Source: Pseudanabaena galeata CCNP1313 (lineage in GTDB: Bacteria > Cyanobacteriota > Cyanobacteriia > Pseudanabaenales > Pseudanabaenaceae). From it: 64,000 nucleotides of DNA. Numbering within the stretch: position 1 is the first letter of the stretch; each line of letters starts with the position of its first letter. The DNA is taken from positions 992,001 through 1,056,000 of the forward strand of contig NZ_CP112874.1 in the NCBI RefSeq assembly GCF_029910235.1, written 5' to 3'. The position numbers and the translations under genes are program-made. The notes beneath the pieces are model-generated. The model ran no database searches. It worked only from the letters and a program-made list of their open reading frames with translations, and was not told the DNA's origin. Below are positions 1 to 61,862 of the stretch, piece after piece.

Positions 1-27
1 TTTTGCGTCACAATAGCGCTAAAAAGG

Positions 28-623
<596 letters not shown>

Positions 624-24355: not shown

Positions 24356-26077
24356 TTACTTGGGTAATGTCGTAACGCACTTTTGACGTTCCATATCGCC
24401 GATCATGCTTTCTGATAATTCTGGCATTCCAAAAGTTGCATAGATGGGATAGAGACTTCCTGAGCCTGAGTCTCTAGCGGCAATTATGTTGGGACGATCA
24501 CGCCAGAAAAATCCTTTCCCGCCGTCATATCGCAATTCTTGATTGAGAACGACTCCAATTTTCATGTCGAGGTTTCCATTAGCATCTTGGGTGACGACAC
24601 AGGTTCCACCTTTGGCTGTGGATGGAAATACATAGAAGTATCTGCCTCCTGTATACCAAGCTCCTAAGAATTTGGCGGCATTAGGGTTACGGGCTTTCCA
24701 TTCATTCTGAAATTTGCGGCGTTGATCGGCTTGGTTGCCGCGCAGTTTGACTAGGCTTTCTGGGTTGCCACGCAATTTGTTTTCAAATGATTTGAATTCA
24801 TTGTTGGTGGGATATTTGGCGATCGTGTCTGTTGGAATAGAAGGAATGGCTCTATCATTATTTCTAGATGAATTTTGAGGTGGAAGTGTAGTACATCCAA
24901 ACTGTCGTAATTTTTCAGGTCTGAAAGGCTCTAATAGCCGAGGGAATGCAAAAGCAAAAAAACTATTCTCTTCAGAAACTTTAGCAAGTGCAGCTAGGAT
25001 ATTGATCCTACCGTTTTTAGTATTTGCAACTTGTTGTAAGACTACAAACTTTTCACCATTTTCAGTTTCGACAAGTAACTTGTTTCCTGAGATTTTCCCA
25101 ATACCAAATGTGTGTGTGTATACAGTTCTAATCCCAGAAGAATCTCTTACATCGTCACCAAAACTAGTAATAACGCAGGATTTACCTTTAGTACTAGATG
25201 GATAAATACTTACCATACTTCTTTCATAGCCTTGCCACTGTCCCAAAAAAGGCGCAAGACTGGGATCGAGAGTACTCCAATCATTTCTAAATTGTGTAAT
25301 TTGCTCTATTTTATATCTACTTCTGTTGTCTATATAGTAATGTAATTGCCTCAAAATATATTTTGAAGGTTGTATGGATTCAATTTCTTGATCGGATAAA
25401 TATCCATTGGAGTGCGAATTGCTAACTTGAGAAGGCAAAGATGCAGTACAGCCTGCGTCAGAAAACTGCTGAAGAACTTGCTTGTTTTGAACTGTATTAG
25501 CAAGTGGTAAAGATGTAATAGGTCTTAGTGGATCTGAGAAAGCACTTTGAAGGCGAATATTTTGCTTGCCTTGCTCAACACTAGCGATGCCCAAATAGTT
25601 GCCATTTCTAATTAAAGTTCCTCCTGAACTCAGAAAATTATTATTCCAACCATTTGGTTTTAACTGCAAATAGCCATTAGAGATAGATGCAATAGCAAAG
25701 AAAGCGTCAAGTTTGCCTGATGGTCTACTTGGCAAAGTAAAAACAACACACGCACGACCTTTAGAAGAAGAAGGATAAATCATAAAATCTGATACCGTCT
25801 TGTTCCAACTACCAAGAAAAGGTGCTACTTCTGGATCAACTTTTGACCAATCTCTAACAAAAGCATCAAGCTGTCGGCTTCGTTCACCTAGACCAAATTG
25901 TCTAGAACGCTGCACAGATGGAATAACATTTCGTTCAAATTCTTGAGCAAGTCTTCTAACTTCCTCCGTAGTGGGATATCTGTCAGTATTACTAGCGATC
26001 GCCCCCGACCAATTCCCCACACCAAACGATACAGAAGCAGCGACTAAGCCAACTAGCAGATTTCTTGAATTAAACAT
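24356..26077 (-). CDS. Secreted protein with three copies of an unknown domain
   Basis: A 573-residue exported protein. Residues 1-29 form a signal peptide ending GNWSGAIAS. Three related units follow, anchored by FLGxW (88-92, 277-281, 471-475), YPSSxKG followed by CV (101-111, 292-302, 483-494) and a closing C-[TV]-x-LP (210-215, 395-399, 567-572). Two cysteines per unit suggest one disulfide each. I do not recognise the domain. A relative with the same leader, broken by insertion sequences, lies just upstream. Confidence 0.75.
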   Translation of the reverse strand: MFNSRNLLVGLVAASVSFGVGNWSGAIASNTDRYPTTEEVRRLAQEFERNVIPSVQRSRQFGLGERSRQLDAFVRDWSKVDPEVAPFLGSWNKTVSDFMIYPSSSKGRACVVFTLPSRPSGKLDAFFAIASISNGYLQLKPNGWNNNFLSSGGTLIRNGNYLGIASVEQGKQNIRLQSAFSDPLRPITSLPLANTVQNKQVLQQFSDAGCTASLPSQVSNSHSNGYLSDQEIESIQPSKYILRQLHYYIDNRSRYKIEQITQFRNDWSTLDPSLAPFLGQWQGYERSMVSIYPSSTKGKSCVITSFGDDVRDSSGIRTVYTHTFGIGKISGNKLLVETENGEKFVVLQQVANTKNGRINILAALAKVSEENSFFAFAFPRLLEPFRPEKLRQFGCTTLPPQNSSRNNDRAIPSIPTDTIAKYPTNNEFKSFENKLRGNPESLVKLRGNQADQRRKFQNEWKARNPNAAKFLGAWYTGGRYFYVFPSTAKGGTCVVTQDANGNLDMKIGVVLNQELRYDGGKGFFWRDRPNIIAARDSGSGSLYPIYATFGMPELSESMIGDMERQKCVTTLPK

Positions 26078-26431
26078 AATGTGAACTTCTTTGAGATTTG
26101 TGATGATGTGTTAGCGGTTGAACCGAACTTGAGAAGGTAGAGAGGCGGTACAACCAAATTTAGCAAGTCTACTGCTCCTAACTTCCCGTAATAGTTTCCG
26201 ATTTACAACTTCACTAGATATAGTTTTGCTATCGTAAACACCAAAAATGGCAAGGAAATCAATGCTTTTTCCTGATTTTATAGTCCCTCTTTCTTTGAGT
26301 ATAACTTGTTTGCCCCGTTCCCCATCCATTAATAGTTTATTGCCTGAAACTTTACCTAAACTAAATTCATTTATAGTTCGGACTCCAACCCTATCGCTAA
26401 TATAATAAGTTGATACCAAACACACCTGACC

Positions 26432-27730
26432 CTTAGTGGTGCAGAAAACTCAGGAGAGTCTCAAGATGAGACAATGGTAATACGAGCAAATTCGATACGA
26501 AAATCTAACTTTTCGCGTTTGGCAATAGAAGCACAGGCAGGTGGAGGATTAGTTCTAGGGAAAATCTGCAAAAGAGGAAGAGGTTTTTGTTGGTAAAGAA
26601 GGGTGTGAAGCTGACGGAGACCGAGTTGCAGAAAACTCAAGCCGCGATGATCGTGCCAATCAATAGCCGCCCTTTGCCCCAAACGCACCAACATTATGCC
26701 AAGAATTACAGCAATCAGGTTAGCAGTGGCAAGGAGCATAAACAAACAGGTAAGAGATTGAGCATCACGGAGATGCGAGCTAACCACATTAAAAGCCGCC
26801 GACTTGTAATCCTTAAAATGAGGTTCAATACCGCCAAAGCGTTTGCCATAGAGAGCAAAAGTCTGTAATGAAGGGGGAATATCGGTAAGGACAGCCCATG
26901 AACCGTTAGCCATGTCTAGGTTAGCCGTCGCTAAGTGACAATTAACATCACCGAGTACGGTGACATTGGGAACTAGATAAGCTTGCTCTGTGGGAGGTAT
27001 CAGTTGTTCGACGCGCTTGGTTGTACCTGTCGGCAAAGTCACTAGCAGATCGGACTTTGCGCGAAATGCCCAAGACCATTGATTTTGCTGTAACCATCGG
27101 ATTAATTCCCCATGTTCAAAGCCTCGGTCGGCAAGTAAGGTCACTTTGCTTTCTGGCGGCAATAGGGTGAGTACTTGTTCTAATACGGGACGGTAATGCT
27201 CAAAGCCAACAGTAGCGCTTCCATGCTCTAATACCACTTGCGCTAAAGTAATCGACCTTCCACCCCAAATCAAGCATATTTCGATCAGACAGAATTTATC
27301 CCACAGCATACTCGTATCGAGAGCTAGTTCCAACGATGCTCCTGCAAATGCTTGGAGAAAGTGCTTCACCAATGGGTTATAGAATGTCTCGGCGATGATA
27401 TGTGGATTATGCACAAAGTAGCTTAGTCTTTCCATCTGACTTCTGGCTTGGCACTCTCGATGGCTTAAATAGGGCAACCAATGACTCAGACTCGCACTTC
27501 CTGATTGCAATATCGCAGCTACAGACTCCGCAAATCCTTGGAGATGTCGCTTATCTTTTGGCTTGATCCATTGACGCAATTGTTGTTGTAGCTGAAGATA
27601 TAGGTGGGGCATGGATAAGATCTTTTGTTGAGGAACTTGAGTATCTCATCTCTTGTCCCTTTTATCCCTCTTGTCTCATTTTGAGACTCTATGCCTAGCA
27701 ACCTTTCTCAGACTTTTCTGCACCACTAAG
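26432..27730 (-). mobile_element. 1299-bp IS4-like insertion sequence
   Basis: It has inverted ends CTTAGTGGTGCAGAAAA (17 matching bases) and the direct repeat CACCTGACC at 26423-26431 and 27731-27739. It carries one transposase gene on the minus strand and disrupts the secreted-protein gene. Confidence 0.93.
26461..27612 (-). CDS. IS4-like transposase
   Basis: A 383-residue DDE transposase. LALDTSMLWDKF near 94-105 and LLADRGFEHGEL near 158-169 supply the two aspartates, and YGKRFGGIEPHFKDYKS near 253-270 is a Y-R-E-K-type region with the catalytic glutamate. The C-terminus is basic. Length and end structure suit an intact and possibly active element. The exact IS family would need a database check. 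Confidence 0.85.
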   Translation of the reverse strand: MPHLYLQLQQQLRQWIKPKDKRHLQGFAESVAAILQSGSASLSHWLPYLSHRECQARSQMERLSYFVHNPHIIAETFYNPLVKHFLQAFAGASLELALDTSMLWDKFCLIEICLIWGGRSITLAQVVLEHGSATVGFEHYRPVLEQVLTLLPPESKVTLLADRGFEHGELIRWLQQNQWSWAFRAKSDLLVTLPTGTTKRVEQLIPPTEQAYLVPNVTVLGDVNCHLATANLDMANGSWAVLTDIPPSLQTFALYGKRFGGIEPHFKDYKSAAFNVVSSHLRDAQSLTCLFMLLATANLIAVILGIMLVRLGQRAAIDWHDHRGLSFLQLGLRQLHTLLYQQKPLPLLQIFPRTNPPPACASIAKREKLDFRIEFARITIVSS

Positions 27731-28066
27731 CACCTGACCTTTAGTTTGTGATGGGTAAATAGCTAAAGATGATTCCCATCCTCCCCAATCGCCTAAAAAA
27801 GGAGAGATAGAAGGATCGACTTTCTGCCATGCATTTACAAAATCATTGATTTTACTTATTTCTGATGGCGATCTTCGCTCTTGGAAAAATCTACTTCCTC
27901 CTGCTACTCTTGCTAGTGAATCCGCCACGAGAACTTGGATTTCTTGATCAGATACATATCGAGTAGATTTTGGAGCATTTTGCGCGATCGCCCCTGACCA
28001 ATTCCCCACTATCAAAACCGTTGCAAAACTCAACGAACCCAGAAAAGCTTTTTTTATAAACATCAT

Positions 28067-29207
28067 CTTAGTACAGGACAAAAAGTTGCAAAAGTAGACA
28101 GGAAGGGGTTTTATAAAAGATAACCACATCACAAATAAAACCCCTATGAAAGAGATTAGCGTATTTTGCGAAAAGTTACATGAACATCTGCAATGGAATG
28201 GAGCAAGACTCTTATTTGTGTCGATGTTCCTGATCGCACTAATGCGAGTAAAGACAGTAAACCTAGCGGAAATCGCGACAGGATTTAGTGGAGAAGCCAA
28301 AGTCGAATCACACTATAAGCGGTTACAGAGATTTTTTCGAGAGTTTGAAGTGGACTATGAAAGCATCGCTTTAATGGTCGTCAAAGTGATGAAAATACCT
28401 GAACCATGGGTAATCAGTATCGACCGCACCGATTGGAGATTTGGTAAGACGGTATTTAATGTGCTGACATTGGGAGTAGTGCATCACGGTATCGCATTCC
28501 CGTTGGTCTGGATGATGCTGGACAAAAAAGGTAACTCGAACACCCGTGAACGTTGTGAATTGTGTAATCGATTTCTGGAAATATTTGGAGATCGCAAAAT
28601 CGACTTTTTGACCGCAGACCGAGAATTTGTGGGGGAAGAATGGTTTGATTACTTGCTGTGTGACCCATGTACCCACTTTCGTATCCGTATTCGCAAAAAC
28701 ACCTTGCTTGACGATGGGCAGAAGCAACTACGGGCTGACGTTTGTTTCCAAGATCTCCAAGTTGGTCAATCGAAAGTATTGTCTAAGCCGAGGCTTGTTT
28801 GGCAACATTGGCTCTATATTGCGGCAATGCGTCTGGAGGATGGCGATTTGTTAATTGTAGCAACCGCTCATGACCCTAATACCGCTATTGCTGACTATGC
28901 CAAACGTTGGGCGATTGAGACTTTGTTTGGCTGTTTTAAATCCCGTGGCTTTTGTTTGGAGGCTACTCACCTTCAAGCCCCTGAACGCCTTTCTAAACTT
29001 ATTGCTTTACTCACCCTCGCTTTATGTTGGGCTTTTTCTTCGGGGCTTTGGCTTGCTCAGCTCAATCCCCTCAAACCTAAAAAGCACGGTCGCTTACCTA
29101 AAAGCATTTTTCGTCTTGGTTTTGATTTTCTGCGTCATATCATCTTTGACATCCATCTCAATTCCGAGGCTTTCTTCAACTCCATTAAATTTTTGTCCTG
29201 TACTTAG
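28067..29207 (+). mobile_element. 1141-bp IS4-family insertion sequence
   Basis: It has inverted ends CTTAGTACAGGAC / GTCCTGTACTTAG with one mismatch, and the direct repeat AAACATCAT at 28058-28066 and 29208-29216. The duplicated 9-mer contains the start codon of the disrupted gene (CAT on this strand). The insertion separates that gene from any upstream promoter and from the gene at 29231. Confidence 0.92.
28146..29207 (+). CDS. IS4-family transposase
   Basis: A 353-residue DDE transposase. WVISIDRTDW near 95-104 and FLTADREFVGEEWF near 155-168 carry the aspartates, and YAKRWAIETLFGCFK near 249-263 is a perfect Y-(2)-R-(3)-E-(6)-K motif. The stop codon lies in the right inverted repeat. It appears intact. 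Confidence 0.93.
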   Translation: MKEISVFCEKLHEHLQWNGARLLFVSMFLIALMRVKTVNLAEIATGFSGEAKVESHYKRLQRFFREFEVDYESIALMVVKVMKIPEPWVISIDRTDWRFGKTVFNVLTLGVVHHGIAFPLVWMMLDKKGNSNTRERCELCNRFLEIFGDRKIDFLTADREFVGEEWFDYLLCDPCTHFRIRIRKNTLLDDGQKQLRADVCFQDLQVGQSKVLSKPRLVWQHWLYIAAMRLEDGDLLIVATAHDPNTAIADYAKRWAIETLFGCFKSRGFCLEATHLQAPERLSKLIALLTLALCWAFSSGLWLAQLNPLKPKKHGRLPKSIFRLGFDFLRHIIFDIHLNSEAFFNSIKFLSCT

Positions 29208-29230: not shown

Positions 29231-29812
29231 TTATCTTTTATTCCGATTACCTTCTCTAACTGCCGAGTTTGCAATTGCTAATGCAGCGTCAGGCTGTCTT
29301 CGTTTAGATGCAACTTCATATAGAACCCCATTGGACTTCCATTGCACTGTAGACCAGCACGCTGTACCACCACACCAACTCGTAATCAAAGCATTGGAAT
29401 TATCAGACAATTTTACTTGACTGAAACTGGGAGAATATCTAGGGTCTGAGTCCAGAGATCTTCTCTCAAAATCTTTCCTACGCTTAGCGCTGATTGAAAA
29501 ACGAAAAGCGGCATTGCCAGGAGTTACGGAACGGTGATAAAAGTTATAAAAACCCAAGGTATAGTAACTATCTGAGTCAGTCCCTAAATAAGCATAAATA
29601 GTTTCACTTTTATCAAATTTGTATTGTTCAACTACCTGTTCAGAGGGCAATAGAATTGGAACATTTGTTCTTCTTGCAATTTGTGCAGAAATTGCCTTGA
29701 TTGAAAATGTTCCTGCGATCGCCCCCGACCAATTCCCCACCATCAAAACCGTTGCAAAACTGAGCGTACCCAATAAGAAACTTTTTCTACTGACAAGATT
29801 TTTCCCAATCAT
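29231..29812 (-). CDS. Secreted protein of unknown function with the shared leader
   Basis: A 193-residue exported protein. Its signal peptide ends GNWSGAIAG and closely matches those of the proteins at 24356 and 28066, but the mature part shows no FLGxW or YPSS units. The mature region includes a CGGTAC pair near 143-148. I do not recognise it. The start overlaps the stop of the LprI-like gene upstream by 4 bases, so the two are coupled. It ends 24 bases before the insertion sequence. Confidence 0.75.
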   Translation of the reverse strand: MIGKNLVSRKSFLLGTLSFATVLMVGNWSGAIAGTFSIKAISAQIARRTNVPILLPSEQVVEQYKFDKSETIYAYLGTDSDSYYTLGFYNFYHRSVTPGNAAFRFSISAKRRKDFERRSLDSDPRYSPSFSQVKLSDNSNALITSWCGGTACWSTVQWKSNGVLYEVASKRRQPDAALAIANSAVREGNRNKR

Positions 29813-30204
29813 CTCAAATATCCTCTCAAAACTTCAGTTCTTTCAATCGTCACCCTTCTGAGACAATCGTTTAAAAATATTCGATATCCACTCCCACGCA
29901 TATTATTTTGTGTCTCCCTATCACAAGTAGCATCACGCTCATCAATCCATGCCAATTGACGATCAATTAATCGTTCTTTTTCATTGCCACTCAACTGCGA
30001 GATTACCTCTTTCCAAACTGAGTTTAATTCACGATCCGCTTTTTCGTATGCTAAACGAGCGCATCTTTGCATCTGAACTTGATACCTAGGCTTTACACAG
30101 CTTGTATCATCTTGTGCCGACAAAGGTGATACAAGCTGTGTAAAGCAAGTCAACATAAATCCCAGAGAAATTAGTAAAAATTTATTCTTATTTGTAAAGT
30201 TCAT
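29809..30204 (-). CDS. LprI-like (DUF1311) exported protein
   Basis: A 131-residue protein with a signal peptide to about residue 31. The mature part shows the lysozyme-inhibitor LprI N-terminal type pattern (PF07007): MQRCARLAYEKADRELNSVW near 45-64, LIDRQLAWIDERDATCD near 80-96, and CLRRVTIERTEVLR near the end. It has four cysteines in the mature part. A role in protecting the cell wall from lysozyme is known for one family member, but the family is broad. It is co-transcribed with the gene at 29231. Confidence 0.75.
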   Translation of the reverse strand: MNFTNKNKFLLISLGFMLTCFTQLVSPLSAQDDTSCVKPRYQVQMQRCARLAYEKADRELNSVWKEVISQLSGNEKERLIDRQLAWIDERDATCDRETQNNMRGSGYRIFLNDCLRRVTIERTEVLRGYLR

Positions 30205-30265: not shown

Positions 30266-30838
30266 TTATCTTCTATATAAAACTTGACTCCGATGAATTA
30301 CACCGCCTCTACCACAAAAATTTGTGCGAAGCCAACCATCACCAACCACACCTCCGCTAAGCTCGATCGCAGTCAACTCGCGAATAGTACAGACGATACT
30401 ACCATTGGGAGAACTTCTTACATTTGAAGGTGGATCAAATACAACTCCAATCGCTATTCCTTCATTAAAACTAGGAGCAGTACAAACAATTTGCATCATA
30501 TCCCTCGTTGCTTGAGATTGCGGTCTATTAACCGCTTGCTCTGGGAAAGTGAGCCACGTTCTCGACTGGCAATTAGCTTGAGCTTGAATACGTTCATTGC
30601 CAAGATTATAATCAAAATTTACCTTTCGAGAACTTATTCTAGAGATAGAACACAGATCAACACTAATGTTCTGCCCACCAACAGCAGTACCCGTAGAATA
30701 ATCACAGTTCCCAGCTTGTGCCGACAGCCCATGAGAATCGACAAGCGCATACACCAAAATTGCTACATTCAAGCAGTAGACAAATGGAAATATAGGCTTC
30801 ACTAAAGATAAGGCTCTCTTGTAATTTATAAAACCCAT
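30266..30838 (-). CDS. Exported protein with C-terminal SH3-like domain
   Basis: About 190 residues from the start at 30838 (MGFINYKRALS). A hydrophobic leader spans about residues 10-40. The C-terminal region PPSNVRSSPNGSIVCTI and WLRTNFCGRGGVIHRSQV is a bacterial SH3-like repeat, often involved in wall or ligand binding. Several cysteines are present. It belongs to the run of secreted proteins on this strand but lacks the GNWSGAIA leader. The longer frame from 30889 has no clear support. Confidence 0.72.
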   Translation of the reverse strand: MGFINYKRALSLVKPIFPFVYCLNVAILVYALVDSHGLSAQAGNCDYSTGTAVGGQNISVDLCSISRISSRKVNFDYNLGNERIQAQANCQSRTWLTFPEQAVNRPQSQATRDMMQIVCTAPSFNEGIAIGVVFDPPSNVRSSPNGSIVCTIRELTAIELSGGVVGDGWLRTNFCGRGGVIHRSQVLYRR

Positions 30839-31094
30839 GTAATTTAGCCTTAACTGAATAGACTTATAAAATACTGGCGCGATCGCCACTCAATCCCGAA
30901 TATATCACTATTCGATCAATTTGATCACTAATAATCTTAAATTTTTGTAAATACATTGATGTTATCCCTGCGGATGGAGGGATTTGGAGACCAAAACTCA
31001 TCAAACAACCATGAGCAGAATGTTATCCTGAATCCTATCTGTTAACTCACAAAGTTATGTTATCCTCCAATCTTTCATTAATATAATTGAATAT
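30839..31094. other. Divergent intergenic region
   Basis: It is AT-rich, with promoters expected in both directions. It contains the phrase GGATTTGGAGACCAAA also found near 1837. No gene was seen. Confidence 0.4.
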
Positions 31095-31343
31095 ATGAAA
31101 ACCATACCCGTAGATAGACTCACCACCAACTTTATCAACCTACTAGAAGAAATCGCCACCACAGGCGACCCCATCGAACTTGATTGGCAAGGCAAACGCT
31201 TCCAAATATCACCAGTAACACCCAAAAATATAGCCACAAATAGGCTAGACAATTTAGTAAGACGACCAAATGTTATCATTGGCGATCCAGAAGACCTAGT
31301 AAGCATTTCTTGGGAACATGAACTCAACCTCGATCTACCTTGA
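31095..31343 (+). CDS. Phd/YefM-like antitoxin
   Basis: An 82-residue protein: the N-terminal part IPVDRLTTNFINLLEEIATTGDPIELDWQGK resembles the Phd/YefM DNA-binding fold, and an acidic C-terminal tail would bind the toxin. The toxin gene overlaps its end by 26 bases. Confidence 0.8.
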   Translation: MKTIPVDRLTTNFINLLEEIATTGDPIELDWQGKRFQISPVTPKNIATNRLDNLVRRPNVIIGDPEDLVSISWEHELNLDLP

Positions 31344-31707
31344 TACCCATGTCATTATTTGGCTCTATGTTGACGAGCGAAACAAACTGAGCAACTTTGC
31401 CCAGTCCATTATTTCCCAAAACTACGATCTCATCTGTTCCCCATTAGTGAAACTAGAGCTACAGTACCTATACGAAATAGGCAGAATTACAGATTCGCCA
31501 AACCTAATTTTGACAGATCTTGCTAATCGTATTGGCTTGCGCCTATGCGATAAAAGTTTTATTGAAATTATTAACTGCGCCCTATCGATTACATGGACTC
31601 GTGATGTTTTCGATCGCCTCATCGTTGCAAACGCAATGGTCAGCGAAAATATCTTACTAAGCAAAGACCACAAAATCCTTGAAAACTACACCCATGCGAA
31701 ATGGTAG
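31318..31707 (+). CDS. PIN-domain toxin (VapC-like)
   Basis: A 129-residue PIN protein: YLDTHVIIWLY near residues 7-17 holds the first aspartate, KLELQYLYEIG near 42-52 the Glu, and WTRDVFDRLIVANA near 92-105 the further acidic residues. LLSKDHKIL closes the domain. It is typical of VapC ribonucleases paired with a Phd-type antitoxin. Confidence 0.87.
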   Translation: MNSTSIYLDTHVIIWLYVDERNKLSNFAQSIISQNYDLICSPLVKLELQYLYEIGRITDSPNLILTDLANRIGLRLCDKSFIEIINCALSITWTRDVFDRLIVANAMVSENILLSKDHKILENYTHAKW

Positions 31708-37169: not shown

Positions 37170-37943
37170 TTGGCGCGGATGAATATGTTTTTGCATAACA
37201 TCAATTACGACAAGTTCAATATGCAGTTGGGCAACACGCTGACCGATCCGCATTTTGCTGATGACAAGCCCTTTGATGCGATCGTCTCTAACCCGCCCTA
37301 TTCGGTGAACTGGATTGGTAGTGATGACCCAACGCTGATTAATGACGATCGCTTTGCGCCTGCTGGTGTACTTGCGCCCAAATCTAAGGCTGATTTTGCG
37401 TTTGTGTTGCATTGTTTGAGCTATTTATCGAGTAAGGGTCGTGCGGCGATCGTCTGCTTCCCTGGAATTTTTTACCGTGGCGGTGCGGAAGCCAAAATCA
37501 GAAAGTATCTGGTGGATAACAACTATGTGGAAACGGTGATTGCCCTTGCGCCTAATTTATTTTTTGGCACGACGATCGCGGTGACGATTTTGGTGCTATC
37601 GAAACACAAGCCCGATACTGCCATCCAGTTTATTGATGCCAGTGGATTGTTTAAAAAAGAAACCAACACTAACACCCTGACCGATGACCACATTGCCGAA
37701 ATCATGGGGGTGTTCGATCGCAAGGAAAACGTTGCTCATTTTGCGCGATCGGTGCTTTTTGAAGAGATTGCTGCTAATGATTACAATCTGTCGGTGAGCA
37801 GCTATGTGGAAGCTGAGGATACCCGCGAAATCACGAATATCACGGCGCTGAATGCGGAATTAAAAACCACTGTTGCCAAGATCGATCGCTTGCGTGCTGA
37901 GATTGATGCGATCGTGGCGGAGATTGAGGGAGAAGGATCATGA
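37170..37943 (+). pseudogene. hsdM: Type I restriction methyltransferase HsdM, C-terminal half only
   Basis: The frame gives 257 residues from the first ATG, and recognisable family sequence begins at about 37156 ([20 protein letters not shown]). The catalytic NPPYS motif is present near residue 37 of the remnant, and the C-terminal coil is complete. The N-terminal helical domain and the AdoMet-binding motif I, roughly the first half of the protein, are absent. The break coincides with the end of a palindromic repeat. It is unlikely to methylate DNA. The stop overlaps the fic start (ATGA). Confidence 0.88.
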
Positions 37944-38602
37944 CAATGGAAAATAAATTAAACATCACTAATCAGGTGGATCTGGCTAAGGCTGAGGAAA
38001 AAATCAGCAAACAAAAGGCAAAGCTGTTTTTTGACTCTGGCGATATTGATAAGGTGGAAGTTGGCACGTTCAAAGGGCTTGCCTTCATTCATGCCTATTT
38101 GTTTTTACCCCCCTTAATCCCCCCTTCGCAGGGGGGAAACTCAGATCCTCCCCCTTTGCAAGGGGGAGTTAGAGGGGGTGCTGGTAAAATCCGCGAGGTG
38201 AATATCTCTAAGGGTAATTTCCGTTTTGCGCCAGTGCTTTATCTAAAAGCGGCTCTGGAACAAATCGACGCAATGCCACAAGGGAACTTTGATCAGATTA
38301 TTGAAAAATATGTGGAGATGAATGTTGCTCACCCTTTCCGTGAGGGCAATGGACGCGCTACGCGCATTTGGCTAGACTTGATGCTCAAAAAAGAAATCAA
38401 GCAGGTTATAGATTGGAATCTAGTGGATAAGGATGATTATCTTTCCGCTATGCAGCGTAGTGTGGTGAAGGATGTGGAAATTAAGGTGTTGTTGAAAAAT
38501 GCGCTGACGGATCAAATTGGCGATCGCGCTTTGTTTATGAGGGGTATTGATGTTAGTTATTACTATGAGGGTTATAGCGAATTTAAAACGGAGGATCTGT
38601 AG
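37940..38602 (+). CDS. Fic family protein with an in-frame repeat insertion
   Basis: A 220-residue Fic protein. The active-site motif [14 protein letters not shown] is near residues 133-146, and [16 protein letters not shown] near 88-103 forms part of the flap. Fic enzymes transfer AMP or other groups to proteins; Fic genes are often seen in type I restriction operons. Residues about 54-80 ([23 protein letters not shown]) are encoded by a C/G-rich repeat inserted where relatives have a short FGDIYDFAG-like link. The reading frame is kept. The start overlaps hsdM; an internal ATG at 37946 is also possible. Confidence 0.88.
38104..38181. repeat. C/G-rich palindromic repeat inside fic
   Basis: TTTACCCCCCTTAATCCCC to GAGGGGGTGCTGGTAAA, with inner CCCCCCTTCGCAGGGGGG and CCCCCTTTGCAAGGGGG hairpins. 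It matches the repeat at 46448-46523 in layout. Confidence 0.8.
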
Positions 38603-38738
38603 GTAGCTAGGCATAAGAAAACTTAAAAAGCAAAGATTAAGATCCCCGACTTTTTTTGTGAATTTGCAAATTGTCTTTGCTTGCCTAGAAAAAGTCGGGG
38701 ATCTGGGCATTTACAGGTTTCTTTTGCTGACCTACTTA
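38600..38738. repeat. 139-bp repeat with AGTCGGGGATC hairpin, copy 2
   Basis: It begins TAGGTAGCTAGGCATAAG at the stop of fic and ends CTGACCTACTTA. It is nearly identical, inverted, to 17183-17319. It may act as terminator for the upstream genes. Confidence 0.8.
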
Positions 38739-38918
38739 GCGATGAATAATATTTTTGGGACGACAACCCAAGAATTGATCCGTAAATCGAGTATCCACAA
38801 TTGAAGCGATCTCCCGATAATTGCAGGGATTGGATAAAACAAATGTCGAATTTGTGCAACAGGCTGTTGCACAATTGTTGAGTATTGAGGGCTAAAAAAT
38901 ACAACTTAAATTAAGATC

Positions 38919-39296
38919 ATGCAAAAAGACATCATCAACTCTCTAACTGATAAAGGTGACACTGCTCTATTTGGCAAATCTACCCAAGCCATGAAAGCCC
39001 AATGGAAAGTACCCGATCGCAGATCTCTTGCGGATTTTGCACCAACTATTATTTTAAAGGCTAAAGATTTTGCGGCTGAAATTACGATCTTTAATGCACA
39101 GCAAAATCAAATGAAGACAGAGCCAGAAATTTCTAGTGAACATATCACGAATAACCAAGCGGTTCGCAAGACGTTACTAGAACGGGGCATTCGTCCCGAA
39201 TCTTTGCCCCCTGCTGAAGATGTCAAAAAAGTCGAACGCCGTCTTGCTTCAGACGAGAAAAAATCTCTTAAAAATCCCGATATTCTAGACAATTGA
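38919..39296 (+). CDS. DinD-like / Bro-related protein, C-terminal part
   Basis: A 125-residue protein. APTIILKAKDFAAEITIFN and NNQAVRKTLLERGIRPESLP, then AEDVKKVERRLASDEKKSL resemble the C-terminal half of DNA-damage-inducible protein D-like proteins, which often lie in type I restriction loci. The Bro-N-like N-terminal domain is missing, and a repeat occupies the upstream gap. It is therefore either a fragment or a short variant. It lies 25 bases before hsdS. Confidence 0.55.
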   Translation: MQKDIINSLTDKGDTALFGKSTQAMKAQWKVPDRRSLADFAPTIILKAKDFAAEITIFNAQQNQMKTEPEISSEHITNNQAVRKTLLERGIRPESLPPAEDVKKVERRLASDEKKSLKNPDILDN

Positions 39297-39321
39297 TCAT
39301 GTTTTTTGATGGAGGTGATGT

Positions 39322-40515
39322 ATGAGTGATATGAATTTTCTGGAAAGGTTGTTGGATGGAGTGGCGGTGGAGTGGAAGCCGTTGGGGGAGCTTGCAGAAA
39401 ACCTTGATTTTATGCGTAAACCTGTCGCAAGTGGGTCAAGAGATTCTGGTGAAATCCCATATTATGGTGCATCTGGAATTGTTGACTATGTAAAAGACTA
39501 TATTTTTGACGGTGACTTTTTGCTTGTTTCAGAAGATGGAGCAAATTTGGTAGCAAGAAATACCCCCATAGCATTTAGTATTAGCGGAAAAAGCTGGGTA
39601 AACAATCATGCTCATATACTCAAGTTCGATACTTATGCTGAACGTCGGTATATTGAATATTATCTAAACAGTATTGACTTAACTCCATACATATCAGGAG
39701 CTGCCCAGCCAAAACTAAACCAAAAGAATTTAAATAGTATTAAAATTCCAAATCCATCTCTTGCGATTCAAGCCGAAATCGTGCGGATTTTGGACACTTT
39801 TACAGCGCTGACTGCCGAGTTGACCGCCGAACTTAGCGCTGAGCTAAGCGATCGCCAAAAGCAATATAACTACTACCGCGATCGGCTGTTGACTTTTGAA
39901 GAAGGTGAAGTGGAGTGGAAGACATTGGGAGACGTATCCCTCAAATCATACTCTGGTAGTACTCCCACAGCAGGCAAATCAGAATATTACGATGGTGGCA
40001 CAATTCCTTGGTTAAGAACGCAAGAAGTAAGGTTTTCTGACATAGAAGAAACAGAAATTAAGATAACTCCTTCTGCATTGAAAAATTCATCCGTCAAATG
40101 GATTCCTAGAAATTGCGTTATTATTGCGATCTCAGGCGCAACCGCAGGACGATCTGCAATCAATAAAATTCCATTAACAACTAACCAGCACTGTTGCTGT
40201 TTGGAAATCGATCCAGAAAAAGCCTTGTATCGATATGTTTTTCATTGGGTAAGTCTTAACCATGAAAACCTCAAAGGACTGGGGCAAGGTGCAAGAGGTG
40301 ACATCAACTCAGGAATTATAAAAAGCTTTAAAATCCCAGTTCCACAACTCAAAGAACAAGCCCGCATCGTCACCATCCTCGACAAATTCGACACCCTCAC
40401 CCATTCCATCAGCGAAGGCTTGCCCCGTGAAATCGCCTTGCGGCAACAGCAATACGAATATTACCGCGATTTGTTGTTAAGTTTTCCCAAAGTGGAGGAA
40501 GGGGCAAACAATTAA
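39322..40515 (+). CDS. hsdS: Type I restriction specificity subunit HsdS
   Basis: A 397-residue HsdS with two target recognition domains (about 1-150 and 195-345), each followed by a helical conserved region. The central helix ends in TALTAELTAELSAELSDRQ, three tandem TAEL/SAEL units of 12 bp (39811-39846). A strong GGAGGTGAT site precedes the start. It would direct the HsdM/HsdS complex to a split recognition sequence. Both halves are intact, but the partner hsdM here is truncated. The last codons lie in a 218-bp repeat shared with the end of the YhcG gene. Confidence 0.93.
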   Translation: MSDMNFLERLLDGVAVEWKPLGELAENLDFMRKPVASGSRDSGEIPYYGASGIVDYVKDYIFDGDFLLVSEDGANLVARNTPIAFSISGKSWVNNHAHILKFDTYAERRYIEYYLNSIDLTPYISGAAQPKLNQKNLNSIKIPNPSLAIQAEIVRILDTFTALTAELTAELSAELSDRQKQYNYYRDRLLTFEEGEVEWKTLGDVSLKSYSGSTPTAGKSEYYDGGTIPWLRTQEVRFSDIEETEIKITPSALKNSSVKWIPRNCVIIAISGATAGRSAINKIPLTTNQHCCCLEIDPEKALYRYVFHWVSLNHENLKGLGQGARGDINSGIIKSFKIPVPQLKEQARIVTILDKFDTLTHSISEGLPREIALRQQQYEYYRDLLLSFPKVEEGANN

Positions 40516-40712
40516 TTTCTAGGTAGGGGCAGAGCATTCCTGCAACTATTGATGCTTATCACTAGAATTGGGATACAGGAATGCTCTGCCCTAAACTTAA
40601 CGCGATCGCAAGTTAATCCTCAACTGCGGAGAGGGTAGAGCATTTGCCAATCGAGATTCTAGCGAAAAGTTGAGAAATTGTGACGCAAATGCTCTACCCC
40701 TACATCAAAATT
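40495..40712. repeat. 218-bp direct repeat, copy 1
   Basis: It starts in the last codons of hsdS (GAGGAAGGGGCAAACAATTA), includes inverted arms GGGCAGAGCATTCCTG and GGGTAGAGCATTTG with their complements, and ends near TACATCAAAATT. The second copy at 41861 begins in the last codons of the YhcG gene. Confidence 0.9.
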
Positions 40713-40740
40713 ATTTTCCCTGCTTTAGAGGACAAAAACC

Positions 40741-40834
40741 AATGACCAATTATAAGGCGATCGCAAAAAACAATATAACTACTACCGCAACTTGTTGTTA
40801 AGCTTTCCCCAATCTAAGGAGGATGAGAAATAAG
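40741..40834 (+). pseudogene. Scar joining an hsdR start to an hsdS end
   Basis: ATGACCAATTATAAGGCGAT is a near copy of the first codons of hsdR (MTNYNAIA). It is joined to a second copy of the last hsdS codons (QYNYYRNLLLSFPQ in another frame). It indicates past recombination in this locus. Confidence 0.65.
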
Positions 40835-41881
40835 ATGAGCAACTTACAAAAAAACGAATTAACCGATCTAGGTGCTGATCCACTACTTCTTGAAATAAAG
40901 ACCTTGATTGAAGAAGGTCGTAACAAGGCAATTATGGCGGTAAACAGCGCCCTAACCCTAACCTATTGGCAAGTTGGCAGACGGATCAATCAGGAAGTGC
41001 TTCGTGGAGAGCGAGCGGAATATGGTAAGCAAGTAGTGGAATTACTGGCAAAGGAACTTGTTTTATTTTATGGAAAAAGCTTTGCCGCTAGAAATATCAG
41101 ACGCATGATGCAATTTGCAGAGACCTTTCCTGATTTTGAGATTGTGTCACCACTGGTGTCACAATTAAGCTGGACGCACTTTACCCTTTTGCTGCCCCTG
41201 CCAAATCATGAAGCCAGAATGTTTTATGCTAACCAAGCAATTACAGGCAAATGGAGCAAACGGGAACTGCAAAACCAAATTGAGCGTAAAGCCTTTGAGC
41301 GCAGTGAAATTTCTAATACTAAGCTGTCATTAGTCAAAGCAGATCATTTGCACGGAAACTTCAAAGATCCTTATTTTCTTGATTTTCTGGGTTTAAAAGA
41401 TGGTTACTTGGAAAATGAACTAGAAAACGCTCTAATAAAGGAACTGGAACTATTCATTTTAGAACTAGGCAAAGGCTTTGCATTTGTAGAGCGACAAAAG
41501 CGCATGATCATAGACGGAGAAGATTTTTATCTCGACTTACTTTTCTTTCACCGCAAACTAAAACGACTGATAGCGATCGAATTGAAAATTGGGAAATTTA
41601 AAGCAGCCCATAAAGGGCAGATGGAACTGTATCTAAATTGGCTCGACAAGTATGAACGAACCGAAGATGAACACGCTCCGATTGGTCTTATTCTCTGCGC
41701 CGAAGCAGGATCGGAGAAGGTAGAACTGCTTAATATGCAGAAAGATAACATCATGGTTGCTGAGTATTGGACTAATCTCCCTCCTAAACAACTATTAGAA
41801 GAAAAACTTCATCATGCCCTAATTGAAGTAAAGGAAAGACTAGCGGAGCAAAAGTTTTTAGAGGAAGGGGCAAGCAATTAA
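40835..41881 (+). CDS. YhcG-family PD-(D/E)XK nuclease, paralogue 3
   Basis: A 348-residue protein of the DUF1016/YhcG family. It has YWQVGRRINQEV near 44-55, FAARNIRRMMQFAE near 87-100 and the nuclease core FYLDLLFFHRKLKRLIAIELKIGKF near 230-255 with D and ExK. The start at 40835 is chosen because AAGGAGG directly touches the earlier ATG at 40823 but is 12 bases before this one. The gene is bounded by 218-bp direct repeats and could be lost as a unit. It is closer in core sequence to the paralogue at 8829 than to that at 9918. Confidence 0.87.
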   Translation: MSNLQKNELTDLGADPLLLEIKTLIEEGRNKAIMAVNSALTLTYWQVGRRINQEVLRGERAEYGKQVVELLAKELVLFYGKSFAARNIRRMMQFAETFPDFEIVSPLVSQLSWTHFTLLLPLPNHEARMFYANQAITGKWSKRELQNQIERKAFERSEISNTKLSLVKADHLHGNFKDPYFLDFLGLKDGYLENELENALIKELELFILELGKGFAFVERQKRMIIDGEDFYLDLLFFHRKLKRLIAIELKIGKFKAAHKGQMELYLNWLDKYERTEDEHAPIGLILCAEAGSEKVELLNMQKDNIMVAEYWTNLPPKQLLEEKLHHALIEVKERLAEQKFLEEGASN

Positions 41882-42079
41882 TTTTTAGGTAGGGGCAGAG
41901 CATTCCTGCAACTGTTGATGCTTATCATTAGATTTTGTATACAGGAATGCTCTGCCCTAAACTTAACGCGATCGCAAGTCAATCCTCAACTGCGGAGAGG
42001 GTAGAGCATTTGCCAATCGAGATTCTAGCGAAAAGTTGAGAAATTGTGACGCAAATGCTCTACCCCTACATCAAAATTG
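41861..42079. repeat. 218-bp direct repeat, copy 2
   Basis: A near-identical copy of 40495-40712, starting in the last YhcG codons (EEGASN) and ending before the higBA control region. Confidence 0.9.
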
Positions 42080-42130
42080 TTTGCAGATTTCTGATGTCCT
42101 CAAACAGATTCAGGAACGCCGACAGCAATT

Positions 42131-42168
42131 TGTTTACATATTGACAACTAGTTGTCAATATGTAAACA
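42131..42168. promoter_or_regulatory. Perfect 38-bp palindrome, probable HigBA operator
   Basis: Each arm is 19 bases (TGTTTACATATTGACAACT and complement), with the centre between 42149 and 42150. It lies 82 bases before higB. The AT-rich core, TTGACA-like part and position fit an autoregulatory operator bound by the HigA helix-turn-helix protein. Confidence 0.75.
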
Positions 42169-42249
42169 TGGATACTAATAATAGGAATCTAACAGCAAAA
42201 AGAGATAAATCGTGACTCATGACAAACTTACATTTACAAGGAAGATCCC

Positions 42250-42549
42250 GTGCATCTTATCTCGGTCGGAAAACTGATTAAAGCTGCTGCTCAATACCCT
42301 AATACAGTCGAAATAGTTAAAAACTTCGCCAAAAAAGTTGAAAACTCTAACTGGAAAAATCTGATCGATGTGCAAGCCGACTATCCATCTGCTGAAGCCG
42401 TTGGTAGGTTTACAGTTTTCAATATTAAAGGCAATAGATATCGCCTAATTCTGGCGATCGACTACGAAAGCCAAGTCGCATACTTTAAATACTTTCTCAA
42501 CCACGCTGACTACAGCAAGGATGAATGGAAAAATGACCCTCACTATTAA
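42250..42549 (+). CDS. higB: HigB-type mRNA interferase toxin
   Basis: A 99-residue HigB (PF09907) starting at GTG after AAGGAAGATCCC. WKNLIDVQADYPSAEAVG near 36-53 and FNIKGNRYRLILAIDYESQV near 58-77 are the family signature, and YFKYFLNHADYSKDEW contains the conserved tail. It cleaves mRNA on the ribosome when free. As usual for this group, the toxin gene comes first. Confidence 0.92.
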   Translation: MHLISVGKLIKAAAQYPNTVEIVKNFAKKVENSNWKNLIDVQADYPSAEAVGRFTVFNIKGNRYRLILAIDYESQVAYFKYFLNHADYSKDEWKNDPHY

Positions 42550-42952
42550 CAGAGATAGCTATGTAGAGTTGCTTAATAGATACGAAATCAGTCCAAAGAT
42601 CATCGAAACGCAGCCAGAATACGAGCAATTTCTTACGGTTACAGAAAATCTTCTATCTAAGCGCCATGAACGCACCGAAGCCGAAACTGCACTATTCATG
42701 TTGCTAGTAAAACTGATTCGAGACTACGAAGAAAAAACCTATTCTTTTCAAGAATGGATAAACACCAAGCCCCATGAATTCCTACAGCATTTAATGGAAG
42801 CAAGGGAAATCAAGCAAGTTGAACTAGCTAGAGCAACTGGTTTAAATAAAGGACTAGTATCAGCAATACTTAGTGGCAAAAGAGAGATTAGCAAAACTCA
42901 AGCCAAGAAATTGGGAGAATACTTTAATGTTTCTCCTGCTGCTTTTATTTAA
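42533..42952 (+). CDS. higA: HigA antitoxin with helix-turn-helix
   Basis: About 139 residues from the ATG at 42533 (the frame opens at 42521), overlapping the end of higB. The C-terminal helix-turn-helix QVELARATGLNKGLVSAILS is followed by GKREISKTQAKKLGEYF. It binds HigB and represses the pair, probably at the 38-bp palindrome. Its stop is 12 bases before hsdR. Confidence 0.92.
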   Translation: MTLTINRDSYVELLNRYEISPKIIETQPEYEQFLTVTENLLSKRHERTEAETALFMLLVKLIRDYEEKTYSFQEWINTKPHEFLQHLMEAREIKQVELARATGLNKGLVSAILSGKREISKTQAKKLGEYFNVSPAAFI

Positions 42953-42964
42953 TAAGGTTGAATC

Positions 42965-44755
42965 ATGACCAACTACAACGCGATCGCCGAATCCAATAAC
43001 TTTATCATTCTTGAACAATACAGCAAGCAATCAAGAGTTAAGGAAAGCTACCAAAGCGAATATGACTTAGAGGGCGAGTTTATTCAGGATTTAGTAAATC
43101 AAGGCTATCAATACCTACCCAGCATCACCACCCCCCAAACCATGTTAGCCAACGTCCGCGAGCAATTGCAGACACTAAATAACGTGCAGTTTAGCGATCG
43201 CGAATGGCAGCGTTTTGTCGAAACCTATTTAGATAAACCGAGCGACAGCATTACCGATAAAACCCGCAAAATCCATGACGACTATATCCTTGATTTTACA
43301 TTTGATGATGACCGCATTCAAAACATCTACCTCCTCGACAAAAAGAACCTTGCCCGTAACAAAGTCCAAGTCATCAAGCAATTTGAACAAAAGGGTAAAC
43401 AAGCCAATCGCTACGATGTCACCATCTTGGTAAACGGCTTACCCCTCGTCCAAATAGAACTAAAAAAGCGCGGCGTAGCCATTCGGGAAGCCTTTAACCA
43501 AGTGCATCGCTACAGCAAAGAAAGCTTTAACGCCGAACATTCCCTCTATAAATATCTGCAACTGTTTGTCATTACCAACGGAACCGATACCCGCTACTTT
43601 GCCAACACCACCCAGCGCAATAAAAATAGCTTTGACTTCACCATGAACTGGGCGAAAGCCGATAACAACCTGATCAAAGACCTGAAAGACTTTACCACCA
43701 CATTTTTTCAGAAAAATACTCTGCTCAGTGTCTTATTGCAGTATTCAGTTTTTGATGTGAATGATACTTTGCTGGTGATGCGCCCCTACCAGATTGCCGC
43801 CACCGAGCGCATTTTGTGGAAAATCAACAGCGCTTACCAAGCCAAACAATGGAGCAAAATTGAGAGCGGCGGCTATATCTGGCACACCACAGGCTCAGGC
43901 AAAACCCTAACCAGCTTTAAGGCGGCACGACTGGCGACCGAACTAGATTTTATCGACAAGGTGTTTTTTGTGGTCGATCGCAAAGACCTCGATTACCAAA
44001 CCATGAAGGAATATCAACGCTTTTCGCCCGATAGCGTCAATGGCTCCAACAGCACGGCGGGGCTGAAAAGTAATCTGGATAAAGACGACAACAAAATCAT
44101 CGTCACCACGATCCAGAAACTGAATAACCTGATGAAAACCGAAAGCGACCTAGCCATCTACAACAAGCAGGTCGTATTTATTTTTGATGAATGCCACCGC
44201 AGCCAGTTTGGTGAGGCGCAGAAGAACCTACGGAAAAAATTCAAGAAGTTTTATCAGTTTGGATTCACTGGCACGCCCATTTTTCCGCAAAACGCTCTGG
44301 GTGCAGACACCACCGCCAGCGTGTTTGGTCGTGAGCTACATTCCTATGTGATCACCGACGCGATCCGTGATGAAAAAGTACTGAAGTTCAAGGTGGATTA
44401 CAACGATGTGCGCCCAAAATTCAAAGCCATTGAAACCGAGCAGGACGAGCAGAAGCTAAACGCCGCCGAAAACAAACAAGCCCTGTTACACCCCAATCGC
44501 ATTCGCGAGATTTCCCAATACATCTTGAATAACTTCCGCCAAAAAACGCACCGCTTGCAAGGGGGCGCTTATCAAGCCAGCAAGGGCTTTAATGCCCTGT
44601 TTGCCGTGAGCAGTGTGGACGCTGCCAAGCTGTATTACGAAACATTTAAGCAGTTGCAATCTCAAGAACCCCCTCTAACTCCCCCTTTTGAAGGGGGAGA
44701 ACCGAGCCTCCCCCCTGCTAAGGGGGGACTGAGGGGGGGGTACAAAAAACCCTAA
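42965..44755 (+). CDS. hsdR: Type I restriction HsdR, N-terminal part up to a frameshift
   Basis: 596 residues. The nuclease domain has D151, E165 and K167 (QIELKK). The helicase part has TGSGKT at 309-314, DECH at 408-411 and a GFTGTP motif near 433-438. The frame then enters a C/G-rich repeat (about 44669-44741, encoding [20 protein letters not shown]) and stops. The natural continuation [15 protein letters not shown] is in another frame immediately afterwards. One extra base in the G8 tract at 44733-44740 would restore a single frame of about 1060 codons. Confidence 0.9.
44670..44742. repeat. C/G-rich repeat inside hsdR with a G8 tract
   Basis: CCCCCTCTAACTCCCCCTTT and CCTCCCCCCTGCTAAGGG hairpins end in a run of eight G (44733-44740). 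It has the same layout as the repeats in fic and at 46448. It replaces a short variable link between helicase subdomains. Confidence 0.82.
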
Positions 44756-44802
44756 AAATCGCCACCATTTTTTCCTTTGCCGCCAATGAAGCACAGGATG
44801 CA

Positions 44803-46149
44803 GTGGGAGAGATATCGGATGAAGGCTTTGATGTATCAGCCATGAATAGCAGCGCCAAAGAATTTTTGAGTGTGGCGATCGCTGACTATAACGCCCTGTT
44901 TAAAACCAACTTCAGCGTCGATAACAACGGTTTTCAAAACTACTACCGCGATCTTGCCAAGCAAGTAAAAGCCAAAGAAATCGACCTGCTGATCGTGGTG
45001 GGGATGTTCCTGACGGGATTTGATGCGCCTACCCTCAATACCCTGTTTGTCGATAAAAACCTGCGCTATCACGGTTTGCTGCAAGCCTATTCGCGCACCA
45101 ACCGCATTTATGATGCCACCAAAACCTTTGGCAATATCGTCACCTTCCGCGATTTAGAACAAGCCACCATCGATGCCATTACCCTGTTTGGCGATAAAAA
45201 CACCAAAAACGTGGTGCTGGAAAAAAGCTACAGGGAATACATGGGCGGCTTTACCGATGTGGTGACGGGTGAAGCACGGCGCGGCTTTGTGGAGGTGGTG
45301 ACAGAATTAGAACAGCGTTTTCCCAACCCCGACGAGATTGTTTTAGAAAAAGATAAAAAAGACTTTGCCAAGCTATTTGGTGAATATTTGCGCGTGGAAA
45401 ACGTATTGCAAAATTACGATGAATTTGCCAGCCTGAGAGCCTTGCAATATGTCGATGTGAATGACTCGGCGGCAGTTGAAGTATTTAAAGCCAAGCATTA
45501 TTTAAGTGATGAAGCCCTGACGACACTGCAAACAATCAAGGTTCCGAGCGATCGCACCATTCAAGATTACCGATCCACCTACAACGATATCCGCGACTGG
45601 TTGCGCCGTGAAAAAGCGGGGAGCGAAAAAGAAAAATCCGCGATCGATTGGGATGATGTGGTGTTTGAAGTGGATTTGCTAAAATCCCAAGAAATCAATC
45701 TGGATTACATTCTTGAGCTAATTTTTGAGCAGAATAAAAAGAATAAAAGTAAGGGCGAATTGATCGAAGAAGTGCGCCGCTTGATTCGAGCCAGCCTAGG
45801 TAATCGCGCTAAAGAAAGCCTAATTGTGGATTTTATTAATCAAACCAATCTCGATGAGATGGCAGATAAAGCCAACATCATTGATACATTCTATAAATTT
45901 GCCCAAGCCGAGCAAGCCCGCGAAGCTGATGAGTTGATTCGTTCCGAAGGCTTGAAGGTCGAAGAAGCCAAGCGTTATATCAGGGTCTCCCTGAAACGCG
46001 AGTTCGCCAGCGAGAATGGGACTGAGTTAAATTCAACACTGCCGAAAATGAGTCCGCTTAATGCACAATACAAAACCAAGAAACAAAGCGTTTTCCAAAA
46101 AATTGCAGCGTTTGTTGAGAAGTTTAAAGGCGTAGGCGGTCAGATTTAG
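44803..46149 (+). CDS. hsdR: Type I restriction HsdR, C-terminal part after the frameshift
   Basis: 448 residues from a GTG, but family sequence starts before it at 44755 ([17 protein letters not shown]). It contains the second helicase half, with [20 protein letters not shown] and [11 protein letters not shown] motifs, and the helical C-terminal region that binds the methylase core. By itself it has no nuclease or Walker A. With the 5' part it would form a normal-length HsdR. Confidence 0.88.
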
Positions 46150-59316: not shown

Positions 59317-59519
59317 AAATAAAAGTAAATAATTAGAGGAGAATGCAATTTTTGGTCACATCCATACTGGCAGCTACCAAAAATCGCCAAACAATTGCAA
59401 AGCTGCCAATCTTTAATCATACCTAATGCTTCATACCGAAAGCTCTTACAAAAGTTATCGTCTCTTGATAATTGCTGCCAAAAAAATTTTTTTCATAGAC
59501 TATTGCAAATAATGGGGGA
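59317..59519. other. Upstream region of argZ
   Basis: AT-rich sequence with no gene; it contains AAAAAAATTTTTTT near 59480. It probably holds the argZ promoter. Confidence 0.4.
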
Positions 59520-59523
59520 ATAA

Positions 59524-59736: not shown

Positions 59737-59763
59737 GCAAATCTCGCGACGCGAGATTTGTAA

Positions 59764-60747: not shown

Positions 60748-60775
60748 AGATTTAATGTCCTCATGGCTGGCGTGG

Positions 60776-60816
60776 CAGAAATTAATTGTGGCGCTAAGCG
60801 CCACAATTAATTTCTG
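60776..60816. other. Palindrome over the alternative moaA start
   Basis: AGAAATTAATTGTGGCGCT pairs with its complement. It contributes the codons MALSATINF of the longer moaA frame, which argues against that start. Confidence 0.6.
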
Positions 60817-60915
60817 ATTTTGTAATTTAGGGTGTGATGTGCTGTAACTAATTTTTAGGTTTTGATTTGTCCTAGCTATATGATAGAAAAATAATTGATC
60901 AAGATGTTTTAAACC

Positions 60916-61836: not shown

Positions 61837-61862
61837 GTTATTACCGACGCAACCATTGTTGA

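Follow-up and report, generated by a model that had tools for sequence, protein, structure and literature searches.

A region of a 64,000-nucleotide stretch of Pseudanabaena galeata CCNP1313 DNA (contig NZ_CP112874.1; hereafter, the window) encodes a protein along which one set of residues recurs three times. This raises the questions of whether the pattern corresponds to a domain, which fold and function this domain may have, and how the group of genes that carries it was assembled. A sequence-only reading of the stretch had proposed a secreted domain in three tandem copies, with FLGxW and YPSSxKG...CV anchors recurring about every 190 residues. The analysis bears this out, as a single 573-aa ORF encodes a signal peptide followed by three homologous units (Table 1). 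Local alignment scores between the units (139, 106, and 105) far exceed the maxima of 1000 shuffles each (59, 54, and 47, respectively), and a profile made from the three units and extended over the fetched loci matches all of them. FLG is found at residues 87, 277, and 470 (spacing of 190 and 193), and YPSS, YPSS, and FPST at 101, 292, and 484, respectively. Each unit contains one pair of Cys (110/210, 301/395, and 493/567), this residue being absent elsewhere in the protein, and the N-terminal stretch, MFNSRNLLVGLVAASVSFGVGNWSGAIA, is signal-peptide-like. The sequence evidence thus supports a real, exported and repeated domain with no named family in the libraries searched.

Table 1. Features of the triple-unit gene and of the adjoining cluster, in window positions.
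Feature	Position	Strand	Remark
Triple-unit secreted protein, 573 aa	24356..26077	minus	exactly one ORF
Signal peptide of triple-unit protein, 28 aa, ends GNWSGAIA	25994..26077	minus	cleavage site placed by eye
HIP1 (GCGATCGC) inside the signal peptide of the triple-unit gene	25995-26002		
Unit 1, residues 33-215	25433..25981	minus	profile match
Unit 2, residues 226-399	24881..25402	minus	profile match; modelled
Unit 3, residues 421-572	24362..24817	minus	profile match; modelled
Broken single-unit paralogue, C-terminal piece	26111..26431	minus	
Insertion element splitting the single-unit gene, 1,299 bp	26432..27730		
Transposase of first element	26461-27612	minus	DDE_Tnp_1 above cut-off; NCBIfam IS4 model below cut-off
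Broken single-unit paralogue, N-terminal piece	27731..28066	minus	start at 28066
HIP1 in single-unit gene	27984-27991		
Second insertion element	28067..29207		abuts start codon of single-unit gene
Transposase of second element	28146-29207	plus	IS4 family above NCBIfam cut-off
Secreted protein, mature part unrelated to single-unit gene	29231..29812	minus	signal-peptide DNA common to both
HIP1 in gene 29231-29812	29715-29722		
LprI-family secreted protein	29809..30204	minus	PF07007, E 3e-20
Further small secreted protein	30266..30889	minus	no Pfam match; signal peptide without HIP1

Membership of a named family was ruled out by scans against Pfam, NCBIfam, PHROG and the sequences of the PDB. The complete protein gave nothing above cut-off in Pfam (best E 0.12) and no row in NCBIfam. 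When 31 units were scanned singly, the best E-values were 0.0044 in Pfam (DUF6799, two units) and 0.04 in NCBIfam, from listings that do not display the curated cut-offs. A PHROG scan of 30 units produced a row for only one of them (E 0.0068), and a profile search of PDB sequences up to E 10 returned a single row (E 0.76), which is not an avidin. The claim that this signature belongs to no named family therefore stands, since no strong Pfam match was obtained for the protein or for the 31 units. In these Pfam scans neither the protein nor any of the units matched PF07007, the LprI family, which a neighbouring gene does match; LprI-family proteins are small secreted neighbours in the same clusters, but with a different domain. 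As judged by these searches, the unit domain is a new family, absent from Pfam and NCBIfam. A role in a defence system was discarded, as the triple-unit protein has no PADLOC match.

Residues W45, G57, P70, C78, and C178 (unit 1 numbering) are invariant in 31/31 aligned units, and in a 30-row alignment (A4) the corresponding residues are kept together with one more invariant Phe. The two invariant Cys in an exported protein point to one disulfide per unit. A strongly hydrophobic stretch precedes the first unit in 50 of the 52 distinct ORFs that hold a full unit, and the other two are just under the cut-off, a count obtained with a hydrophobicity heuristic and not with a signal-peptide predictor.

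Relatives of the triple-unit protein were detected in 9/38 genomes at E <= 0.1 and in 13/386 genomes of the phylum at E <= 0.001 (the window's own genome counted in both), and the profile recovered the same 13; the domain is present in 10 of the 142 cyanobacterial genera sampled. With unit 1 as query, relatives were found in 4/26 genomes of the genus at E <= 0.01, including the window's own. Narrow patterns of the closer subfamily A3, applied to 84,980 bacterial and archaeal species, gave 18 loci, all labelled as cyanobacterial. Based on these searches, which outside the phylum used only the A3 patterns and within it also the profile, the family may occur only in cyanobacteria, where its distribution is patchy. 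Viral contigs (pattern-based scan), 72,556 plasmid records and 50,697 phage records contained no relative of the triple-unit protein, and the lack of relatives in those collections ruled out a viral, plasmid or phage origin.

Many of the relatives are secreted proteins with one unit only, about 200-220 aa long, and paralogues lie side by side in several loci, with six unit ORFs (five full) in L055, four (three full) in L064 and three in L060. Longer architectures occur within the genus: in a protein of genome G001 some 180 residues of an unnamed insert separate a first unit from a second one of the unit-3 type, and its counterpart in G013 continues after the same arrangement into a lipase-type hydrolase (PF00151, E 2.1e-13). 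The insert (residues about 236-417 in the G013 protein, also in G001) has no Pfam match. In two genomes of other families (L096, 8541-11938; L097, 5302-8712) unit-3-type proteins adjoin a gene that by eye resembles a Ser/Thr protein kinase.

The sequence-only reading had recommended a profile search and the structure prediction of one unit; the former recovered the 13 genomes mentioned above, and the latter was carried out on units 2 and 3, whose models resemble mostly calycin-like barrels among solved folds. The AlphaFold model of unit 2, based on 30 sequences (mean pLDDT 89.6, pTM 0.87), is predicted to contain three helices near the N-terminus (10-16, 18-26, and 35-49), then eight strands between residues 60 and 161, and a last helix (168-173). 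That of unit 3 (mean pLDDT 80.8, pTM 0.76) is likewise predicted to begin with helices, to continue with eight consecutive strands and to end in a helix; both were built on the same 30 sequences and are not independent of each other. In Foldseek searches of the PDB, the leading rows for unit 2 were mostly lipocalins and avidins (best E 3.1e-3), and for unit 3 YedD and BFA1 came first, ahead of lipocalins (best E 7.9e-3); none reached 0.001 and TM-scores were about 0.3-0.4. Viral structures gave none at E <= 0.001, the first row being a lipocalin-domain protein. A second structural aligner, whose own warning is that Z under 8 may reflect a common arrangement, ranked a designed barrel best for unit 2 (Z 8.3), followed by avidins and streptavidins at Z 6.9-7.9 (rmsd 2.3-3.9 A over 86-102 residues), with which an unrelated enzyme (1jmx, Z 7.5) ties. 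For unit 3, a designed barrel was again best (Z 6.9), the second row was the unrelated aminopeptidase 1ei5 (Z 6.7), and avidins and streptavidins reached 4.9-6.1.

The anchor residues give these matches a sequence counterpart. Gly of the GxW motif is kept in 30/30 rows, and Trp in 26/30, with Tyr in the other four; in unit 2 they are residues 60 and 62, on a first strand spanning 60-64, and in the unit 3 model the motif is also on the first strand (63-67). Streptavidin was aligned over 13..134 with residues 54..161 of unit 2 and over 11..134 with 55..140 of unit 3. Several of the streptavidin ranges would, if gapless, place the Trp of the unit at streptavidin residue 21, the Trp of its own GxW; other rows start elsewhere. 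At column 161, at the end of the last strand, Arg is found in 10/30 rows and Lys in 4/30. According to a study of the Bacillus subtilis protein YxeF, the calycin signature is Gly-x-Trp/Arg, with GxW on the first strand (PMC3367933). Because FLGxW puts Gly and Trp on the strand where calycins carry them, the sequence supports a calycin reading, and because the Arg/Lys that completes the signature is present in only 14/30 rows the unit is called calycin-like and not a proven calycin. Confidence is further tempered by the dependence between the two models and by the other folds that tie. Both models display eight successive strands, which may close as the +1 up-and-down barrel of calycins. Altogether, the unit is probably a small calycin-like beta-barrel domain.

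Compared with the calycin superfamily (lipocalins, fatty-acid-binding proteins, and avidin/streptavidin), the unit shares eight consecutive strands, Gly-x-Trp on strand 1 and export, and with lipocalins also a C-terminal helix. It differs in having no sequence match to any Pfam family, in the N-terminal helices ahead of the barrel, in the invariant Cys pair, in an Arg partner present in under half of the rows, and in structural scores no higher than 8.3 (designed barrel) and 7.9 (avidin). Two bacterial proteins are also close points of reference. AimA of Aeromonas is a secreted protein of tandem calycin domains and, like the triple-unit protein, has no sequence relatives in known families (PMC6219842). 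It has two domains instead of three, homologues reported in Aeromonas only and a demonstrated host-immune role (PMC6219842). YxeF, also a small calycin exported by a bacterium, was recognised by its topology and its GxW, and differs from the units in being a lipoprotein with a full GxW/Arg and no C-terminal helix (PMC3367933). A survey of the open-access literature (titles and abstract starts) returned nothing recognised as the unit domain or as HIP1 in signal peptides.

Based on these data, a mechanism can be proposed in which the triple-unit protein would be exported by the Sec pathway and each domain of about 150-185 residues would comprise a helical N-terminal cap, an eight-stranded meander closed as a calycin-type barrel and a C-terminal helix, with one disulfide tying the C-terminus of the unit back to the third strand. 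The unit would act as an extracytoplasmic binding protein whose target may be a small ligand or a protein partner, for example an exported hydrolase. Tandem copies would offer several binding sites, and the domain would serve as a single copy, as a tandem array or as part of a fusion with an enzyme.

Two other explanations of these observations were weighed. One is that the likeness to calycins reflects a common arrangement only, the unit being an eight-stranded beta domain of some other unnamed fold with a coincidental GxW. The modest best Z values (8.3 and 6.9), the ties with other folds, the absence of Foldseek matches at E <= 0.001, the incomplete Arg partner, and the additional N-terminal helices and Cys pair would all fit this possibility, which is considered rather doubtful, as avidins and lipocalins account for the majority of the rows listed with unit 2 and are numerous among those of unit 3, and both models, which are 23-25% identical in sequence, carry GxW on strand 1. 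The other concerns function and is the main rival to a binding role: units may be periplasmic inhibitors or immunity proteins that, in the manner of the adjoining LprI-type lysozyme-inhibitor family, counter the hydrolases or toxins of microbial competitors. Some calycin-like proteins are protease inhibitors, and potempin E is among the structural rows of unit 3 (Z 4.9). The window, L058 and L060 each have LprI-family genes next to unit genes or close to them, and the patchy distribution (13/386) and the side-by-side paralogues of L055, L060, and L064 also agree with such a role. Yet 'lysozyme inhibitor' is for LprI a family name only, no toxin gene was seen paired with the units (in an inspection that was not systematic), and one relative bears a lipase-type hydrolase on its own chain, unlike an inhibitor of an outside enzyme; an inhibitory function is thus regarded as unlikely. 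The preferred reading remains that of a tandem, calycin-like binding domain.

The single-unit relative next to the triple-unit gene, cited by the sequence-only reading in favor of a domain, is indeed a homologous unit that keeps the conserved residues, but it is not an intact gene. It runs from 28066 to 26111 on the minus strand and is split by an insertion element with a perfect 9-bp target duplication (CACCTGACC) and 20/22 matching terminal positions; joining the flanks of this element restores one open frame with the conserved residues. A second element, with duplication AAACATCAT and 19/22 matching terminal positions, abuts the start codon. As the gene is split by one element and has another at its start, it is very probably inactive in this genome. 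Unbroken single-unit genes occur in other genomes.

The genes of this cluster seem to have exchanged their export signals. The signal-peptide DNA of the single-unit gene and that of gene 29231-29812 are identical at 64/73 bases (BLAST E 6e-19), and their mature parts show no relationship (score of 24 against a shuffle maximum of 37). Thirteen of 14 cluster genes from three genomes of the genus (30266-30889 was left out) were compared pairwise with cut-offs set against shuffles. Among the 78 pairs, 13 were similar in signal-peptide DNA only, 6 in the mature part only (2 of these just miss the signal-peptide cut-off), 11 in both and 48 in neither. The opposite situation is exemplified by 29231-29812 and its G001 orthologue, with related mature parts (568, shuffle maximum 48) and unrelated signal-peptide DNA (11, shuffle maximum 14). 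When 29231-29812 was searched in the 26 genomes of the genus, a single full orthologue was detected, and the matches to five other cluster genes were confined to its residues 4-46. A 35-base signal-peptide pattern (<= 3 mismatches) has five sites in those 26 genomes, all of which belong to these clusters (G013 has 3 and the window's genome 2). As a base rate, 351 gene starts in 464 kb of this genome plus the single-unit gene gave six pairs with common 5' DNA and different mature parts, two of them in the cluster and four that each include an ORF of at most 152 aa.

Similar pairs were detected in five clusters of other cyanobacterial genomes, in which 27/226 pairs have common signal-peptide DNA and no mature similarity (8/45, 2/55, 2/36, 6/45, and 9/45 per cluster), 20 share the mature part only and 18 share both; these counts come from a slightly looser cut-off and include some cleavage sites misplaced by the script. 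Loci L055, L057, L058, L060, and L064 display same-strand runs of small secreted-protein genes with MKGRSLLSLIVSLAILG-like signal peptides and different mature domains.

That this likeness arose by convergence or selection instead of exchange could be argued from the compositional bias of signal peptides, from the fact that HIP1 codes 361 of 388 Ala-Ile-Ala in 464 kb, so that its presence at an AIA cleavage site is expected, and from the only 50-70% per-base likeness of gene starts in other genera. Within the genus, the similarity lies at the DNA level (64/73 bases; BLAST E 6e-19), only four further such pairs were found among 351 gene starts (all with an ORF no longer than 152 aa), and two orthologues differ in their signal peptides. 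This makes convergence quite improbable, and exchange of signal peptides is favored as the likely cause of the sharing.

HIP1 (GCGATCGC) is found at the edges of these modules. In the frame Ala-Ile-Ala, it forms the last signal-peptide codons in 9/11 cluster genes of the genus tested, and three further cluster genes have no HIP1 in their first 180 bases (9/14 in all). It is placed at the joint between signal peptide and mature part in genes of the window and of loci L090, L091, and L092. Among the three window genes, the aligned DNA stops with the final base of HIP1. The LprI gene and gene G013_237 have a signal-peptide type without HIP1 at the cleavage site, and a relative of the LprI-type signal peptide that in G001 is joined to a 29231-type mature part carries HIP1 at the joint. 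In the five other-genome clusters, HIP1 occurs within the first 240 bases of 14/50 genes (51 occurrences in the five loci in total), in 14/14 of them directly after the start (ATG-AAx-xx-HIP1 or a near form) and coding Arg-Ser. Around this start-side HIP1 (91 pairs), identity rises from 0.26-0.42 ahead of the start codon to 0.68 in the ten bases that precede the motif; it is 0.52-0.58 across the signal peptide and drops to 0.33 past it.

HIP1 was described in 1995 and its role is still considered open, with some evidence for site-specific recombination (PMC4390886). Recombination at HIP1 would produce in-frame exported chimeras, as its AIA frame matches the AxA site of signal peptidase and its other frame codes Arg-Ser. 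It is tentatively suggested, as a rather improbable extension of the exchange reading, that HIP1 marks edges where signal-peptide modules swap between secreted-protein genes in cyanobacteria. Its causal role is only suggested because the motif is common, with 662 copies in 400 kb. A rough base rate of 8/68 genes with HIP1 was given by a heuristic signal-peptide finder that has false positives and missed the triple-unit gene. In addition, the genes within each set are related and may go back to a small number of independent events, and the end of the module that bears HIP1 is not the same in the two sets but the opposite one. HIP1 as a proven cause of exchange was rejected, as 361/388 AIA are HIP1-coded in any case and the signal peptides are related.

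The location of the cluster also varies. Based on gene names assigned by eye, its neighbor is recG in the window and a dnaX-like gene in G001, and in G013 toxin-antitoxin-like genes are close by; in G022 LprI-type and 30266-type genes are found together, with no unit gene detected. A fixed insertion site beside recG was discarded, since 12/12 regions downstream of recG in relatives (6 to 18 kb each) lack the unit cluster, and the only match inside the range of the cluster in these regions is a 156-base piece of the second insertion element in G019. In three relatives (G017, G019, and G020) recG is followed by DNA that matches window 61.8-57.2 kb (57199-61837), at the far end of the stretch and in inverted orientation. 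The boundary of the cluster on the recG side (24250) is therefore taken to be rearranged, so that an inversion or a large insertion would separate recG from 57199-61837 in this genome.

Two further observations concern the surroundings. Type I restriction-modification genes are present 11 kb away (37170-46149), with an hsdM-like piece (257 aa), hsdS and an hsdR-like gene in two ORFs (596 and 448 aa), and appear to be degraded; they are considered separately from the triple-unit gene. A nearly identical gene that by eye is PIN-like occurs near the unit cluster in the window (31318-31707) and in G013 (L092, 4075-4464).

Taken together, the host clusters would change fast through duplication, moves, insertion of IS elements and exchange of signal peptides. 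The complete account, in which a Sec-exported, tandem, disulfide-braced and calycin-like binding domain is carried by clusters that exchange signal peptides, is given a probability of roughly 0.55.

The unit thus represents an uncatalogued domain that ten or more cyanobacterial genera possess, and an N-terminus resembling an export signal precedes it in nearly all cases. If it is calycin-like, it would extend the calycin superfamily in cyanobacteria. The sharing of signal peptides suggests how bacteria may build new secreted proteins from a reusable export module and, if the proposed part of HIP1 in this process is true, an abundant and little-understood cyanobacterial motif would gain a concrete evolutionary effect.
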